Assembly (NCBI RefSeq): GCF_011398155.1
Contig: NZ_AP021888.1
Location: 789,501 to 853,500, forward strand
Direction: 5' to 3'
DNA: 64,000 nt
Source of the DNA: Thiosulfativibrio zosterae
GTDB taxonomy: Bacteria > Pseudomonadota > Gammaproteobacteria > Thiomicrospirales > Thiomicrospiraceae
Shown: one piece after another, positions 55,377 through 60,124 of the stretch
Layout: the number at the start of each line of letters is the position of its first letter
How positions within the stretch are numbered: the stretch's first letter is position 1
Notes under the pieces: generated by a model
The model's input: only the letters and a program-made list of their open reading frames with translations
Database searches by the model: none
Told to the model about the DNA's origin: nothing
Position numbers and translations under genes: made by a program

Positions 55377-55598
55377 ATGACTGAAAGTTATTTGGATTTT
55401 AAGGGGTTGCCGTGCCCTTTGCCTTTGGTAAAGCTAAAAAAAGCATTGGTTACTCAGCCAGAGGTGGCTATTTTTAAAGTCGTAGCAACTGATAAAGGGG
55501 TGCTGAAAGATTTGCCGGCATTTTGTAAAACCCAAAACTTGTTCTGTGAAATACTGGCCGATAAAAGCCCTTTTGAGTTAACGATTCATCGGACTTGA
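55377..55598 (+). CDS. tusA: TusA/SirA family sulfur-carrier protein
   Basis: A 73-residue TusA-like protein with the family motif GLPCPLPLVKLKKA and active Cys13. In E. coli TusA delivers sulfur for tRNA modification; in sulfur oxidisers TusA homologues carry sulfane sulfur in the cytoplasm with DsrE proteins and rhodanese. The overlap with the DsrE2-like gene (TTGA) and the proximity of sox favour the latter role. Inference from motif and context. Confidence 0.88.
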   Translation: MTESYLDFKGLPCPLPLVKLKKALVTQPEVAIFKVVATDKGVLKDLPAFCKTQNLFCEILADKSPFELTIHRT

Positions 55599-56188
55599 GT
55601 GGCTTAACTTTTCAATTTCAGAGTAAAAACACACGAATGACATCCACAAATCTTGGTTCTAATATTTCGTCTTCAGAAGCTTTAACGCCCCAGTTCAGTA
55701 TTATTGTTTCCAAAGGAACTTTAGATGCGCTTTATCCTGCCTTGATTTTGGCCAGCAGTGCTTCGGCAATGGGCAAACAAGTTGAATTGTTTTTTACTTT
55801 TTATGGATTGAAGTGTCTGTTAAAGGATACCCGCAGCATTAAAGTCACGCCTTTAGGCAACCCAGCGATGGAGATTAAATGTCCTATTGGGCCTAAGTGG
55901 CTCAAGAAAATTGATTTTAATCATGTATTTCCGCCACTCATCTGGACTTTGCCCGGTATGACATCACTGGCTACTTGGGGATTTAAAAAAAAGATGCAAA
56001 GTCAAAATCAATTGAGCTTAGAGGCATTGAGAGATTTGTGTGTATCGATGGACATTAAAATGACCGCTTGTCAAATGAGTGTGGATTTACTCGGATATCA
56101 AGAAAATGAGTTTATTGAAGGTATTGAGTTTGCTGGCGCAGCAACTTATTTTGCTTCAAGTGCTGATAACCAAGCTTTATATATTTAG
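55595..56188 (+). CDS. DsrE2-like sulfur-carrier protein
   Basis: A 197-residue protein of the DsrE/DsrF-like (DrsE2) family: the segment IIVSKGTLDALYPALILASSASAMGKQVELFFTFYGL and the cysteine motif ACQMSVDLLGY are typical. Such proteins pass sulfur with TusA in sulfur oxidisers. The TTG at 55595 overlaps the tusA stop; an ATG at 55637 would remove 14 residues. A hydrophobic patch (PPLIWTLPGMTSLATWG) suggests membrane contact. galU follows after 15 bases but is functionally unrelated. Confidence 0.85.
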   Translation: MSGLTFQFQSKNTRMTSTNLGSNISSSEALTPQFSIIVSKGTLDALYPALILASSASAMGKQVELFFTFYGLKCLLKDTRSIKVTPLGNPAMEIKCPIGPKWLKKIDFNHVFPPLIWTLPGMTSLATWGFKKKMQSQNQLSLEALRDLCVSMDIKMTACQMSVDLLGYQENEFIEGIEFAGAATYFASSADNQALYI

Positions 56189-56203: not shown

Positions 56204-57088
56204 ATGTCATACAAAAAACTAACTAAAGCCATTTTGCCCGTTGCGGGTCTTGGAACACGATTTTTGCCAGCCACTAAGGCCATTCCTAAAGAAATGTTAA
56301 CGGTTGTTGATAAGCCTCTCATTCAGTATATCGTGCATGAGGCGGCAGAAGCGGGCATTACAGACATTATTTTGGTTACACATTCGAGTAAGGGCGCCAT
56401 CGAAAATCACTTTGATAAACATTATGAGTTAGAAAATGAGCTCAAGATTCGTGGTAAGAATGACCGCTTAATTCCCCTTGATGAAATTACGCCTGATGGT
56501 GTTCGGTTTGTGAGTGTGCGTCAGCCAGAGGCTTTGGGTTTAGGGCATGCCATCTTGTGTGCGGCGCCAATTATTGCACCTGACGAACCCTTTGCAGTTT
56601 TGTTGCCTGATGTATTGATGTATCACCCTCAAAAAGGCTGTTTAGCTCAAATGGTTGAAGATTATGAGCGTTTGCACACCAGCATTGTAGCGCTAGAAGC
56701 AGTTGAAGCCGATCAAGTTGAAAAGTATGGGATTGCAGGAGTGCGTGGTCCAGATATGCGTATTGACCGTTTGGTTGAAAAGCCCAAGCCTGAGAATGCG
56801 CCGTCTAATTTATCGGTGGTCGGGCGTTATATTTTTACCCCCAGACTGATGGAATTATTAAAAACAACCAAGCCAGGTGCGGGTGGAGAAATTCAGCTTA
56901 CGGATGCTATGGATGCATTATTAAATGAAGAAGTGATGTTTGGCTTTGAATTCAAAGACGGTAAGAGCTATGATTGCGGGGATAAACAAGGATTTCTGCA
57001 AGCCAATGTTGAATATGCCTTGCGTGACCTAAAATTAGGTGCTGGCTTTAGAAGTTATTTAGAAACACTTAATATTAACGAAATTTAA
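56204..57088 (+). CDS. galU: UTP-glucose-1-phosphate uridylyltransferase GalU
   Basis: Makes UDP-glucose from UTP and glucose 1-phosphate. The 294-residue product has the nucleotidyltransferase loop PVAGLGTRFLPATKAIPKEM and the VDKPLIQY segment, and a C-terminal GKSYDCGDKQGF. It starts a galU-pgi-ugd-like run, with 14 bases to pgi, which provides UDP-glucose and hexose-phosphate interconversion. AGGAG precedes the ATG. Confidence 0.96.
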   Translation: MSYKKLTKAILPVAGLGTRFLPATKAIPKEMLTVVDKPLIQYIVHEAAEAGITDIILVTHSSKGAIENHFDKHYELENELKIRGKNDRLIPLDEITPDGVRFVSVRQPEALGLGHAILCAAPIIAPDEPFAVLLPDVLMYHPQKGCLAQMVEDYERLHTSIVALEAVEADQVEKYGIAGVRGPDMRIDRLVEKPKPENAPSNLSVVGRYIFTPRLMELLKTTKPGAGGEIQLTDAMDALLNEEVMFGFEFKDGKSYDCGDKQGFLQANVEYALRDLKLGAGFRSYLETLNINEI

Positions 57089-57102: not shown

Positions 57103-58734
57103 ATGGGAGTTGAAACTTCTGCTGCATGGCAGGCATTAAATGTTCATTGCGATTCGGGCGCAGGCAGTACGCATCTTAGTCAATTGTTTGAAGATAACAC
57201 CAGAACAGAGCGTTTCTCTATCGAGTTAGATGAAATGTATGTTGATTTTTCTAAGAATCGCATTACCGATGAAACCTTGGGTTTGTTGTTTAATCTTGCC
57301 AAACAACAAGATTTATCTGGCTGGATTAAGAAGCTGTTGTGCGGTGAAAAAGTTAACGATACCGAAGACCGTGCCGTACTTCACACGGCTTTAAGAGCGC
57401 AAGGTATGGGCGTTGATTGTTTCGCAAAAGAAGTTCAACCGCTGGTTGCTGAACAGTTAGCCAAGATGGGTAAAATTGTTGATAAAATCCGCGCTGGCCA
57501 TTGGCGTGGTTATAGTGGAAAGCCGATTACTGATGTGGTCAATATTGGGGTTGGAGGGTCTGATTTAGGGCCTTTAATGATAACCAATAGTTTGCAAACC
57601 ATTAAGTCTCCTGTCAATTTACATTTTATTTCGTCCATAGACGGCACCCAAACTTCAAACCTTTTAAAGAAACTCAGTCAAGAAACCACTTTGTTTATTT
57701 TGGCTTCGAAGTCCTTTAGTACCATTGATACGCTATCCAATGCAGAAACCGCCAAAGATTGGTTACGCGAAAAAGTGAAAAGCGAAAAGACTTTGTTGGC
57801 ACAACACTTTTTAGGGGTGTCAACTAAACCAGACATGATGACAGAGTGGGGAATTCCACCTGAAAACCAATTGGTCTTTTGGGACTGGGTAGGGGGACGC
57901 TATTCACTTTGGTCTGCAATAGGGTTACCGATTGCGCTGCAAATTGGGATGGATGGTTTTTCTGAGTTGTTGTCTGGTGCACACCTAATGGATAGCCATT
58001 TTGGAACCGCACCTTTGGAAAAAAATATTCCCGTATTGTTGGGATTAATTGATGTTTGGAATGTCAACTTTTTAGGGATTCACGATAAAGCAATTTTGCC
58101 TTATGACGCGCGTTTGAAGTATGTGCCTTCTTATTTTGAACAGTTGGTCATGGAAAGTAATGGTAAGTCTGTGAATCGTGCCGGCGAACGAGTGCAATAT
58201 AAAACTTGCCCGGTTTTGTGGGGTGAGGTCGGTCCTAATGCACAACATGCGTTTTATCAATTGCTGCATCAAGGAACTCAACCCGTTATGTGTGATTTTA
58301 TTGCACCGGTTGAGCGTGACGACTTTGACATGAGTTCGCATGCTGAAAAAGATGAAAGCTTAAGTTATCAACATGAGTTGGCGATGGCAAACTGTTTTGC
58401 GCAATCTCGAGTGTTGATGTTGGGAGATGATGCAATTCCAGATGCATTAAAAGCAGCGTTTGATTCCCCCTTTAAGCACTATCCAGGTAATCAACCTTCT
58501 AATACGATTTTGTTAAAAACCATTTCGCCCAAAACCTTGGGTATGTTGGTAGCGCTTTATGAGCACAAAACCTTTGTGGAAGGGGTCATTTGGGAAATCA
58601 ACTCTTTTGACCAGTGGGGTGTTGAACTCGGAAAACTGATTGCTAAAGAAACGCACGCTGCAATCAAATCGGTAGCCTTGGCAGAAAAATTTGACGCTTC
58701 TACCGCAAGCTTAATCAAAAGGATTACAAAATGA
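57103..58734 (+). CDS. pgi: Glucose-6-phosphate isomerase Pgi
   Basis: Interconverts glucose 6-phosphate and fructose 6-phosphate. The 543-residue product matches the long bacterial form. The signatures VNIGVGGSDLGP, VFWDWVGGRYSLWSAIGLP, MESNGKSV and the C-terminal EINSFDQWGVELGK are all present. Its stop overlaps the next gene as ATGA. Confidence 0.97.
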   Translation: MGVETSAAWQALNVHCDSGAGSTHLSQLFEDNTRTERFSIELDEMYVDFSKNRITDETLGLLFNLAKQQDLSGWIKKLLCGEKVNDTEDRAVLHTALRAQGMGVDCFAKEVQPLVAEQLAKMGKIVDKIRAGHWRGYSGKPITDVVNIGVGGSDLGPLMITNSLQTIKSPVNLHFISSIDGTQTSNLLKKLSQETTLFILASKSFSTIDTLSNAETAKDWLREKVKSEKTLLAQHFLGVSTKPDMMTEWGIPPENQLVFWDWVGGRYSLWSAIGLPIALQIGMDGFSELLSGAHLMDSHFGTAPLEKNIPVLLGLIDVWNVNFLGIHDKAILPYDARLKYVPSYFEQLVMESNGKSVNRAGERVQYKTCPVLWGEVGPNAQHAFYQLLHQGTQPVMCDFIAPVERDDFDMSSHAEKDESLSYQHELAMANCFAQSRVLMLGDDAIPDALKAAFDSPFKHYPGNQPSNTILLKTISPKTLGMLVALYEHKTFVEGVIWEINSFDQWGVELGKLIAKETHAAIKSVALAEKFDASTASLIKRITK

Positions 58735-60041
58735 AAGTTTCGGTTTTTGGATGTGAATTAAGTGGATTGGTCACAGCCGGCTCTTTAGCGCACACGGGTA
58801 ATAATGTGATGGCCATTCCGGTCGGAAAGGTCAAGGTAGAAGACCTTATTAAAGGCATTTTGCCAAGAGAAGAGCCTGGGTTAGATCAACTTTTGGCCAA
58901 TGAATTTAAAGAAGGTCGCTTAACGTTTGAATCTGACTGGGAAAAAGGCATTATGCATGGTGACGTGCTATTTTTAAGCATGCCTTCTTGGTTGGCAGAA
59001 AGAGCAGAAGCCGTGATTGAGCTGGTTGGCCAAAAAGCGCAAGGCGATGTTTTGGTGGTGAGCCAAAGCACTTTGCCGATTGGAACCGCAGACCGTTTTG
59101 AAGCCATGCTGAAACTGGCATTTGCACAGCGTGGTTTGGTGGCTAAGGCGGTTGTCGTTGCCATGCCCGAATTTATTAGTGAAGGTTCAGCGATTTCAGA
59201 CTTCTCCAAACCTAATCGAGTGGTACTGGGTAGTGGCGATAAAGCGGCGACTAAAGTCATCAAAGACTTGATGCGTCCATTTAATAATGTGACGGATCAG
59301 TTTAAAGTTATGTCAACGCGCGCTGCAGAATATACCAAATATTCTGTGAATGCTTTGCTGGCAACTCGTATTTCATTGGTCAACGAACTGGCTAACAACG
59401 CAGAACACTTTAATATTGATATGGAAGAAGTGCGTCAAGGTTTGGGGTCTGACCATCGTGTTGGGTTTAATTACCTTTATCCAGGTTGTGGTTTTGGTGG
59501 GCCTAGTTTTGCCGCTGATGTGCAGTTGTTGGTGAAAACGCTTCAATCAAAAGGCTATGATGCCGATTTGCTGAAAACCGTTTTGTCTAATAACGAAGCG
59601 CAAAAAGAAGTGCTATTTCGTAAAGCTTGGCGCTTTTTTGAGCAAGATTTGCGCGGCATTAAAATCGCCATTTGGGGATTGTCGTTTAAGCCTAATACCG
59701 CAACGGTCGATAACGCGCCCAGTATTAAAACCATTGAAGCGCTGGTCGCGCAAGGTGCAGAAGTTATCGCCTATGACCCTAAAGCAGCACCTGCCTTTAA
59801 ACACTATTGGGGCGATCGTCCGCAAGTGACTGTGGTTGAAGAAATGTATCAAGCTTTAGAAGGCGCTGATGCATTGATGGTTTTGACTGAGTGGAAAAGC
59901 TTCTGGAGTCCAGACTACCAAAAAATGTTGTCTTTAATGGAGCGTCCTGTGATATTTGATGGGCGTAATATTTATGAGCACAGCGTGATGCGCGAAAAAG
60001 GCTTTAGATATTTCGGTATAGGTCGTGGCGAAGTTATTTAA
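58731..60041 (+). CDS. UDP-glucose 6-dehydrogenase homologue lacking key catalytic residues
   Basis: A 436-residue protein with the three-domain layout of UDP-glucose dehydrogenase, but with several key changes. The NAD-binding GxGxxG is GCELSG (residues 7-12, middle Gly lost), the acidic residue that binds the ribose is not seen, and the GGSCFPKD active-site loop reads GGPSFAAD, with Ser259 in place of the catalytic Cys and Ala262 in place of Lys; Asp263, Lys203 and Asn207 remain. Together these changes suggest no normal UDP-glucuronate production. It follows galU and pgi in one unit, so a UDP-sugar role is still likely; the reaction is unknown. Confidence 0.8.
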   Translation: MKVSVFGCELSGLVTAGSLAHTGNNVMAIPVGKVKVEDLIKGILPREEPGLDQLLANEFKEGRLTFESDWEKGIMHGDVLFLSMPSWLAERAEAVIELVGQKAQGDVLVVSQSTLPIGTADRFEAMLKLAFAQRGLVAKAVVVAMPEFISEGSAISDFSKPNRVVLGSGDKAATKVIKDLMRPFNNVTDQFKVMSTRAAEYTKYSVNALLATRISLVNELANNAEHFNIDMEEVRQGLGSDHRVGFNYLYPGCGFGGPSFAADVQLLVKTLQSKGYDADLLKTVLSNNEAQKEVLFRKAWRFFEQDLRGIKIAIWGLSFKPNTATVDNAPSIKTIEALVAQGAEVIAYDPKAAPAFKHYWGDRPQVTVVEEMYQALEGADALMVLTEWKSFWSPDYQKMLSLMERPVIFDGRNIYEHSVMREKGFRYFGIGRGEVI

Positions 60042-60091: not shown

Positions 60092-60103
60092 ACCAGGCCT
60101 GGT
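60092..60103. repeat. Palindromic repeat ACCAGGCCTGGT, copy 8 (terminator after ugd-like gene)
   Basis: Perfect copy followed by CAAATTTG and a second half site ACCAGG, so the right half plus the extra half site build the terminator hairpin. Confidence 0.9.
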
Positions 60104-60124
60104 CAAATTTGACCAGGCTTTTTT
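60097..60124 (+). terminator. Terminator formed by two repeat half sites
   Basis: A perfect 22-bp palindrome GCCTGGTCA-AATT-TGACCAGGC followed by six T. Its left arm is the right half of repeat copy 8, the right arm an additional half site. Confidence 0.88.

Follow-up and report, generated by a model that had tools for sequence, protein, structure and literature searches.

A UDP-glucose dehydrogenase-like pseudoenzyme encoded beside galU in Thiosulfativibrio zosterae and its relatives

The galU-pgi locus of Thiosulfativibrio zosterae raises the question of what a protein built like a UDP-glucose dehydrogenase (UGD) does when its active-site and NAD-binding motifs have been replaced. The gene, which we call pUGD for UGD-like pseudoenzyme, lies on the forward strand at 58731..60041 of the window (the whole 64,000-nt stretch analysed here), and its frame is unbroken from ATG to TAA, encoding 436 aa. 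The three UGD domains of Pfam (PF03721, PF00984, and PF03720) each exceed the cut-off in a profile search. Among the NCBIfam models, the protein passes only that of the general subfamily TIGR03026 ("nucleotide sugar dehydrogenase"), and every UGD equivalog is far out of its reach, TuaD scoring 319 bits where 700 are required. A sequence search against the PDB aligned pUGD end to end with the UGD of B. cepacia, and a Foldseek search with an AlphaFold model (pLDDT 92.1, pTM 0.85) matched the same enzyme (PDB 2y0d/2y0e) with a TM score of 0.95 and 41% identity; the alignment given to AlphaFold, which combined four named orthologues and viral canonical UGDs with the window protein, pulls this model towards the UGD fold. 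By fold and descent, pUGD is a member of the UDP-glucose/GDP-mannose dehydrogenase superfamily.

The first-pass annotation had described an active-site loop reading GGPSFAAD, with Ser259 and Ala262, and a GCELSG sequence in the place of GxGxxG, and both are found in the intact frame. The loop GFGGPSFAAD comprises residues 254-263 (59490..59519, +); Ser259 stands for the catalytic Cys, and FPKD has become FAAD, Ala262 replacing the Lys that touches the nicotinamide ribose of NAD (Sp Lys263; PMC4794789). The degenerate Rossmann loop GCELSG comprises residues 7-12 (58749..58766, +) and retains Gly7 and Gly12, the middle Gly being Glu9. That annotation had listed both the catalytic Cys and the catalytic Lys as lost. 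The Cys is indeed missing, whereas the lost Lys is that of FPKD, and the catalytic Lys (Sp Lys204, equivalent to Lys203 of pUGD; PMC4794789, PMC3184952) is present, as are Asn207 and Asp263, in agreement with the earlier description. Four other losses had gone unreported. A deletion of about 7 aa, located at 58980..58985 (+) and shared by the pUGD proteins, has removed the nicotinamide loop VGTPPDEDG with the family-invariant Thr83, whose role is described in PMC4794789; the position of the Asp that contacts the adenosine ribose of NAD is Pro30; that of the NAD-pyrophosphate Arg is Asp327; and Tyr10, which hydrolyses the thioester in canonical UGD (PMC4794789, PMC3184952), is Leu10.

The residues were then compared in a single alignment of 113 distinct pUGD proteins from three gammaproteobacterial families and 27 canonical UGDs. 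Neither the catalytic Cys nor the NAD-ribose Asp occurs in any pUGD (0/113 each), and the middle Gly of GxGxxG, present in 27/27 canonical enzymes, is kept in 1/113. Tyr10 is found in 4/113, the NAD-pyrophosphate Arg in 3/113, and the FPKD Lys in 5/113, and the Thr83 column, Thr in 27/27 canonical enzymes, is a gap in 113/113 pUGD. Since the same lesions recur in 113 distinct relatives, those of the window protein are not due to chance. Lys203 is retained in 112/113 pUGD; Arg243, whose equivalent crosses the dimer to reach the glucose in the S. pyogenes and human enzymes (PMC4794789, PMC3184952), in 113/113; Lys320, which coordinates the diphosphate of UDP-glucose (PMC4794789, PMC3184952), in 113/113; Arg412 in 111/111; and the GxGG turn (Gly256-Gly257 in the window protein) in 113/113. 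Thus, the losses fall on the part of the site that takes the cofactor, and the part that takes the UDP-sugar has been kept. In terms of EC 1.1.1.22, pUGD does not have the Cys, GxGxxG, the ribose Asp, the pyrophosphate Arg, or the Thr loop, and it does have the UDP-sugar pocket (Sp Lys204, Arg244', Lys320, and the GG turn) in 112-113 of 113 members. Asn207 (93/113) and Asp263 (104/113) are not universal, indicating that the sugar end of the pocket varies by lineage. Of the 146 positions invariant in the canonical set, pUGD retain 14/52 in the N-terminal domain, 33/59 in the central one, and 16/35 in the C-terminal one. The family has also gained residues of its own: Trp300 (59628..59630, +), a candidate partner contact, occurs in 113/113 pUGD at a position that varies among canonical enzymes, and Phe255 (113/113) is Tyr in canonical enzymes. 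Arg213 (113/113), Glu293 or Asp (113/113), Gln341 (107/113), and Trp392 (104/113) are also specific to pUGD.

The median dN/dS of pUGD over 137 close pairs is 0.053, and it reaches 0.095 for the NAD domain against 0.029 for the remainder of the protein, which points to purifying selection that is strong overall and looser in the region that would take NAD; the earlier proposal of selection instead of decay is upheld by this value. In maximum likelihood trees, all pUGD form one clade with supports of 100 (SH-aLRT) and 100/100 (bootstrap/SH-aLRT), so that the homologues with a GGPSFAAD-type loop, which the first-pass annotation had recommended collecting, do group together. The loop deletion common to all pUGD provides a marker that long-branch effects do not influence. 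The canonical enzymes of genomes that also carry pUGD (L031, L039, L042, and L178-L181) cluster with the other canonical UGDs. Repeated independent inactivation is not supported, because pUGD form one clade and the loop deletion is identical throughout. The lost catalytic residues, the intact frame, the purifying selection, and the old clade strongly support that pUGD is a pseudoenzyme. It is very probably unable to oxidise UDP-glucose with NAD, judging from the residues it has lost, and it is fairly likely to bind UDP-glucose as a dimer. The suggestion that it binds UDP-sugars without oxidising them thus appears likely, given the retained UDP-sugar residues and the erased NAD site.

The genetic context was as previously described, with pUGD following galU and pgi and overlapping the latter. 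The galU gene (56204..57088, +) encodes a UTP-glucose-1-phosphate uridylyltransferase and is the only gene of the genome above the TIGR01099 cut-off. After 14 nt comes pgi (57103..58734, +), encoding glucose-6-phosphate isomerase (PF00342, E=3e-180), whose stop codon shares an ATGA with the start of pUGD (58731..58734, +), an arrangement suited to translational coupling. An intrinsic terminator (60095..60120, +; -21.5 kcal/mol, z = -5.3) ends the galU-pgi-pUGD unit. A small DsrE/DrsE_2-like protein is encoded directly 5' of galU (55595-56188), a position it holds in some of the relatives and not in others. No PADLOC match to a defence system was found. The closed 2.65-Mb genome, searched with the pUGD protein and PF00984, contains no other UGD-family gene, which answers the question of a canonical ugd elsewhere and means that pUGD is not the partner subunit of a true UGD in this genome; an obligatory partnership with such an enzyme is accordingly unlikely. 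Either pgi or galU lies directly upstream in 110/113 pUGD (66 after pgi, 44 after galU, and 3 not assigned), mostly with an ATGA or a 2-6 nt gap: the two genes share 4 or 11 nt at 59 of the 66 pgi-pUGD junctions, and nearly all of the 44 galU-pUGD junctions have a 2-6 nt gap or a 4-nt overlap. Neither galU nor pgi occurs within about 3 kb of the canonical UGDs of pUGD-bearing genomes. In one locus (L058 2414-5242, genome G036), pgi and pUGD form a single 943-aa frame that differs from L053 by one base at the junction; G036 is a 210-contig draft, and such a fusion, if natural, would favour a link with Pgi.

The first-pass annotation had treated pUGD as one odd protein, and it turns out to represent an old family whose genes adjoin galU in four bacterial families or more. 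In the family of the window, which comprises relatives of Hydrogenovibrio, Thiomicrorhabdus, and Thiomicrospira, pUGD is present in 58 of 63 genomes, and the loop has no Cys in 58/58. A second family, f102 (G163, G279, and G429; L098/L101/L119), has pgi-pUGD, with galU 5' of pgi in both loci long enough to show the upstream gene. In the third, f171, at least 114 of 121 genomes carry pUGD, a count made up of members with identity of at least 50% plus six more divergent ones read individually; the layout is mostly galU-pUGD, and in genera g471 and g472 galU-pgi-pUGD or a pgi-adjacent variant. The fourth, f192 (G606), has the order galU-pUGD-pgi. When 369 evenly sampled gammaproteobacterial genomes were searched, only f1, f102, and f171 yielded intact pUGD scoring above all canonical UGDs; more divergent pUGD may be hidden below that score. 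Pattern matches in G609, G187, and G606:C11 were rejected as UGDs, and G606:C18 is a real pUGD.

Genus g6 contains two types of unit. That of L012/L013/L014/L017/L018/L021 is window-like, with 72-74% identity, and L045-L067 carry a very different galU-pgi-pUGD unit (36-44% identity, about 52% for galU), followed in L053 by a phosphoglucomutase/phosphomannomutase gene; it looks like one operon has been replaced by the other. In f171, the gene after pUGD at L165 6574-7395 encodes a protein of 273 aa, hydrophobic over one stretch and coiled-coil-like in composition, that has no Pfam match. In the same family, the pUGD frame of G424 (L120 6480-7598) is shortened to 373 aa, possibly by recent loss or by sequence error, and this genome also has a canonical UGD.

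Several known systems resemble pUGD in part. BceC of B. cepacia (TuaD/BceC type; PDB 2y0c/2y0d/2y0e) has the same three-domain fold, and its UDP-glucose pocket and dimer-crossing Arg are kept in pUGD, which, unlike BceC, is devoid of the catalytic Cys, Tyr10, the NAD site, and the nicotinamide loop. The Ugd of Acinetobacter is presumably catalytic and its gene belongs to a capsule pathway, whereas the ugd position of the window is occupied by a pseudoenzyme with no polysaccharide cluster adjoining. The polysaccharide clusters of Acinetobacter contain a galU-ugd-pgi cassette (PMC3726653), that is, the same three functions side by side, in the order shared by the galU-pUGD-pgi of G606. The enterobacterial GalF is a non-catalytic protein for which accounts citing Marolda and Valvano 1996 (PMC4643126, PMC11796359) describe a proposed interaction with GalU and regulation of that enzyme. 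GalF and pUGD are both catalytically dead relatives of UDP-glucose enzymes, although GalF derives from GalU itself and pUGD from UGD, a consumer of UDP-glucose. By analogy, GalF would be the precedent for a GalU-regulator role of pUGD.

Such a role is suggested by the production of pUGD together with GalU, encoded here by the only galU, and usually with Pgi. The genetic linkage to galU is clear, and operon partnership alone is not proof of physical contact between GalU and pUGD. In the mechanism that we propose, the dimeric UGD fold would hold UDP-glucose or a close UDP-sugar, without binding NAD or forming a thiohemiacetal, through predicted contacts of Lys320 with the diphosphate, of Arg243 reaching into the partner's site, of Arg412, and of the GFGG turn. 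It would sense the level of UDP-glucose and adjust GalU, or else tether GalU (and Pgi), the outcome being control of the flow from glucose-6-phosphate to UDP-glucose, and Trp300 with Glu293, Gln341, Trp392, and Arg213 might form the partner surface. Most f171 genomes have no pgi in the unit, so that a partnership with Pgi would be optional at most. That pUGD is a UDP-glucose-binding pseudo-dehydrogenase that also regulates GalU is, from sequence and gene order, a tentative proposal with slightly less than an even chance of being right. The broader version, an ancient UDP-glucose-sensing family that exerts feedback control or channelling on GalU, and optionally on Pgi, in several gammaproteobacterial families, is more doubtful.

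The sensed UDP-glucose could instead be reported to a target other than GalU, for example one that acts in lipid synthesis, in cell division, or at the envelope, much as OpgH and UgtP report it to FtsZ. UDP-glucose sensing by such moonlighting enzymes is established, UDP-glucose being a nutrient signal (PMC3723540, PMC5889556), and these regulators are, as proposed for pUGD, sugar-metabolism proteins that read UDP-glucose, although they are active glucosyltransferases of a different fold. The invariant Trp300 suggests some protein partner, and pssA and leuA lie downstream of pUGD in Hydrogenovibrio-type relatives; these two genes, however, are limited to one group and in the window fall past the strong terminator, whereas galU accompanies pUGD in every one of the four families, so this alternative seems improbable. 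Somewhat less probable still is a new enzyme performing NAD-independent chemistry on UDP-sugars (hydrolysis, epimerisation, or transfer) with Lys203, Asn207, and Asp263. The gene does adjoin the synthesis of UDP-glucose, and Lys203 and Asp263 are widely retained, but the position once held by the nucleophile is unconstrained (N, S, H, A, Y, D, G, or T), as are the next ones, whole lineages have Ile or Thr at Asn207 and Thr at Asp263, and the invariants that pUGD has gained (Trp, Arg, Phe, and Gln) make no clear catalytic set.

It is very unlikely that pUGD is still a dehydrogenase, using NADP, a flavin, or another cofactor or releasing the aldehyde as sole product. The Rossmann-type fold appears intact in the AlphaFold model and a covalent adduct still forms in human UGDH carrying C276S (PMC3184952), yet all the NAD contacts tested (middle Gly, ribose Asp, Thr loop, Lys, and Arg) are gone in nearly all relatives, and the N-terminal domain has lost 38 of its 52 canonical invariants. 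The first-pass idea of another cofactor found no support either, because the alignment of this domain, the fastest to drift, revealed no conserved replacement motif. As for a decaying duplicate or pseudogene, or an artefact of annotation or sequencing, the lost catalytic residues and the truncated frame of G424 would fit, but open frames in 58/63 genomes of the window's family and at least 114/121 of f171, a dN/dS of about 0.05, and gained residues common to the relatives leave it a negligible probability; the breadth of occurrence and the dN/dS refute the pseudogene reading.

We found no account of this family in the open literature under UGD pseudoenzymes, galU-pgi-ugd, or Hydrogenovibrio UGD, subscription journals being mostly outside the search, and pUGD is a new branch inside a known superfamily. 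Databases would file it under UDP-glucose or nucleotide-sugar dehydrogenases, and for this reason well over 100 genomes may be credited with a UDP-glucuronate synthesis that this gene does not give. In T. zosterae, pUGD is the only "UGD" of the genome. In three single-contig genomes of the same family (G027, G031, and G033), the pUGD query retrieves nothing but pUGD itself, and their annotated UDP-glucuronate synthesis may be wrong. A consumer enzyme disarmed and yet kept beside the gene for the synthesis of its substrate is an apparent conversion of an enzyme into a sensor, and pUGD renders the control of the bacterial UDP-glucose supply directly testable.
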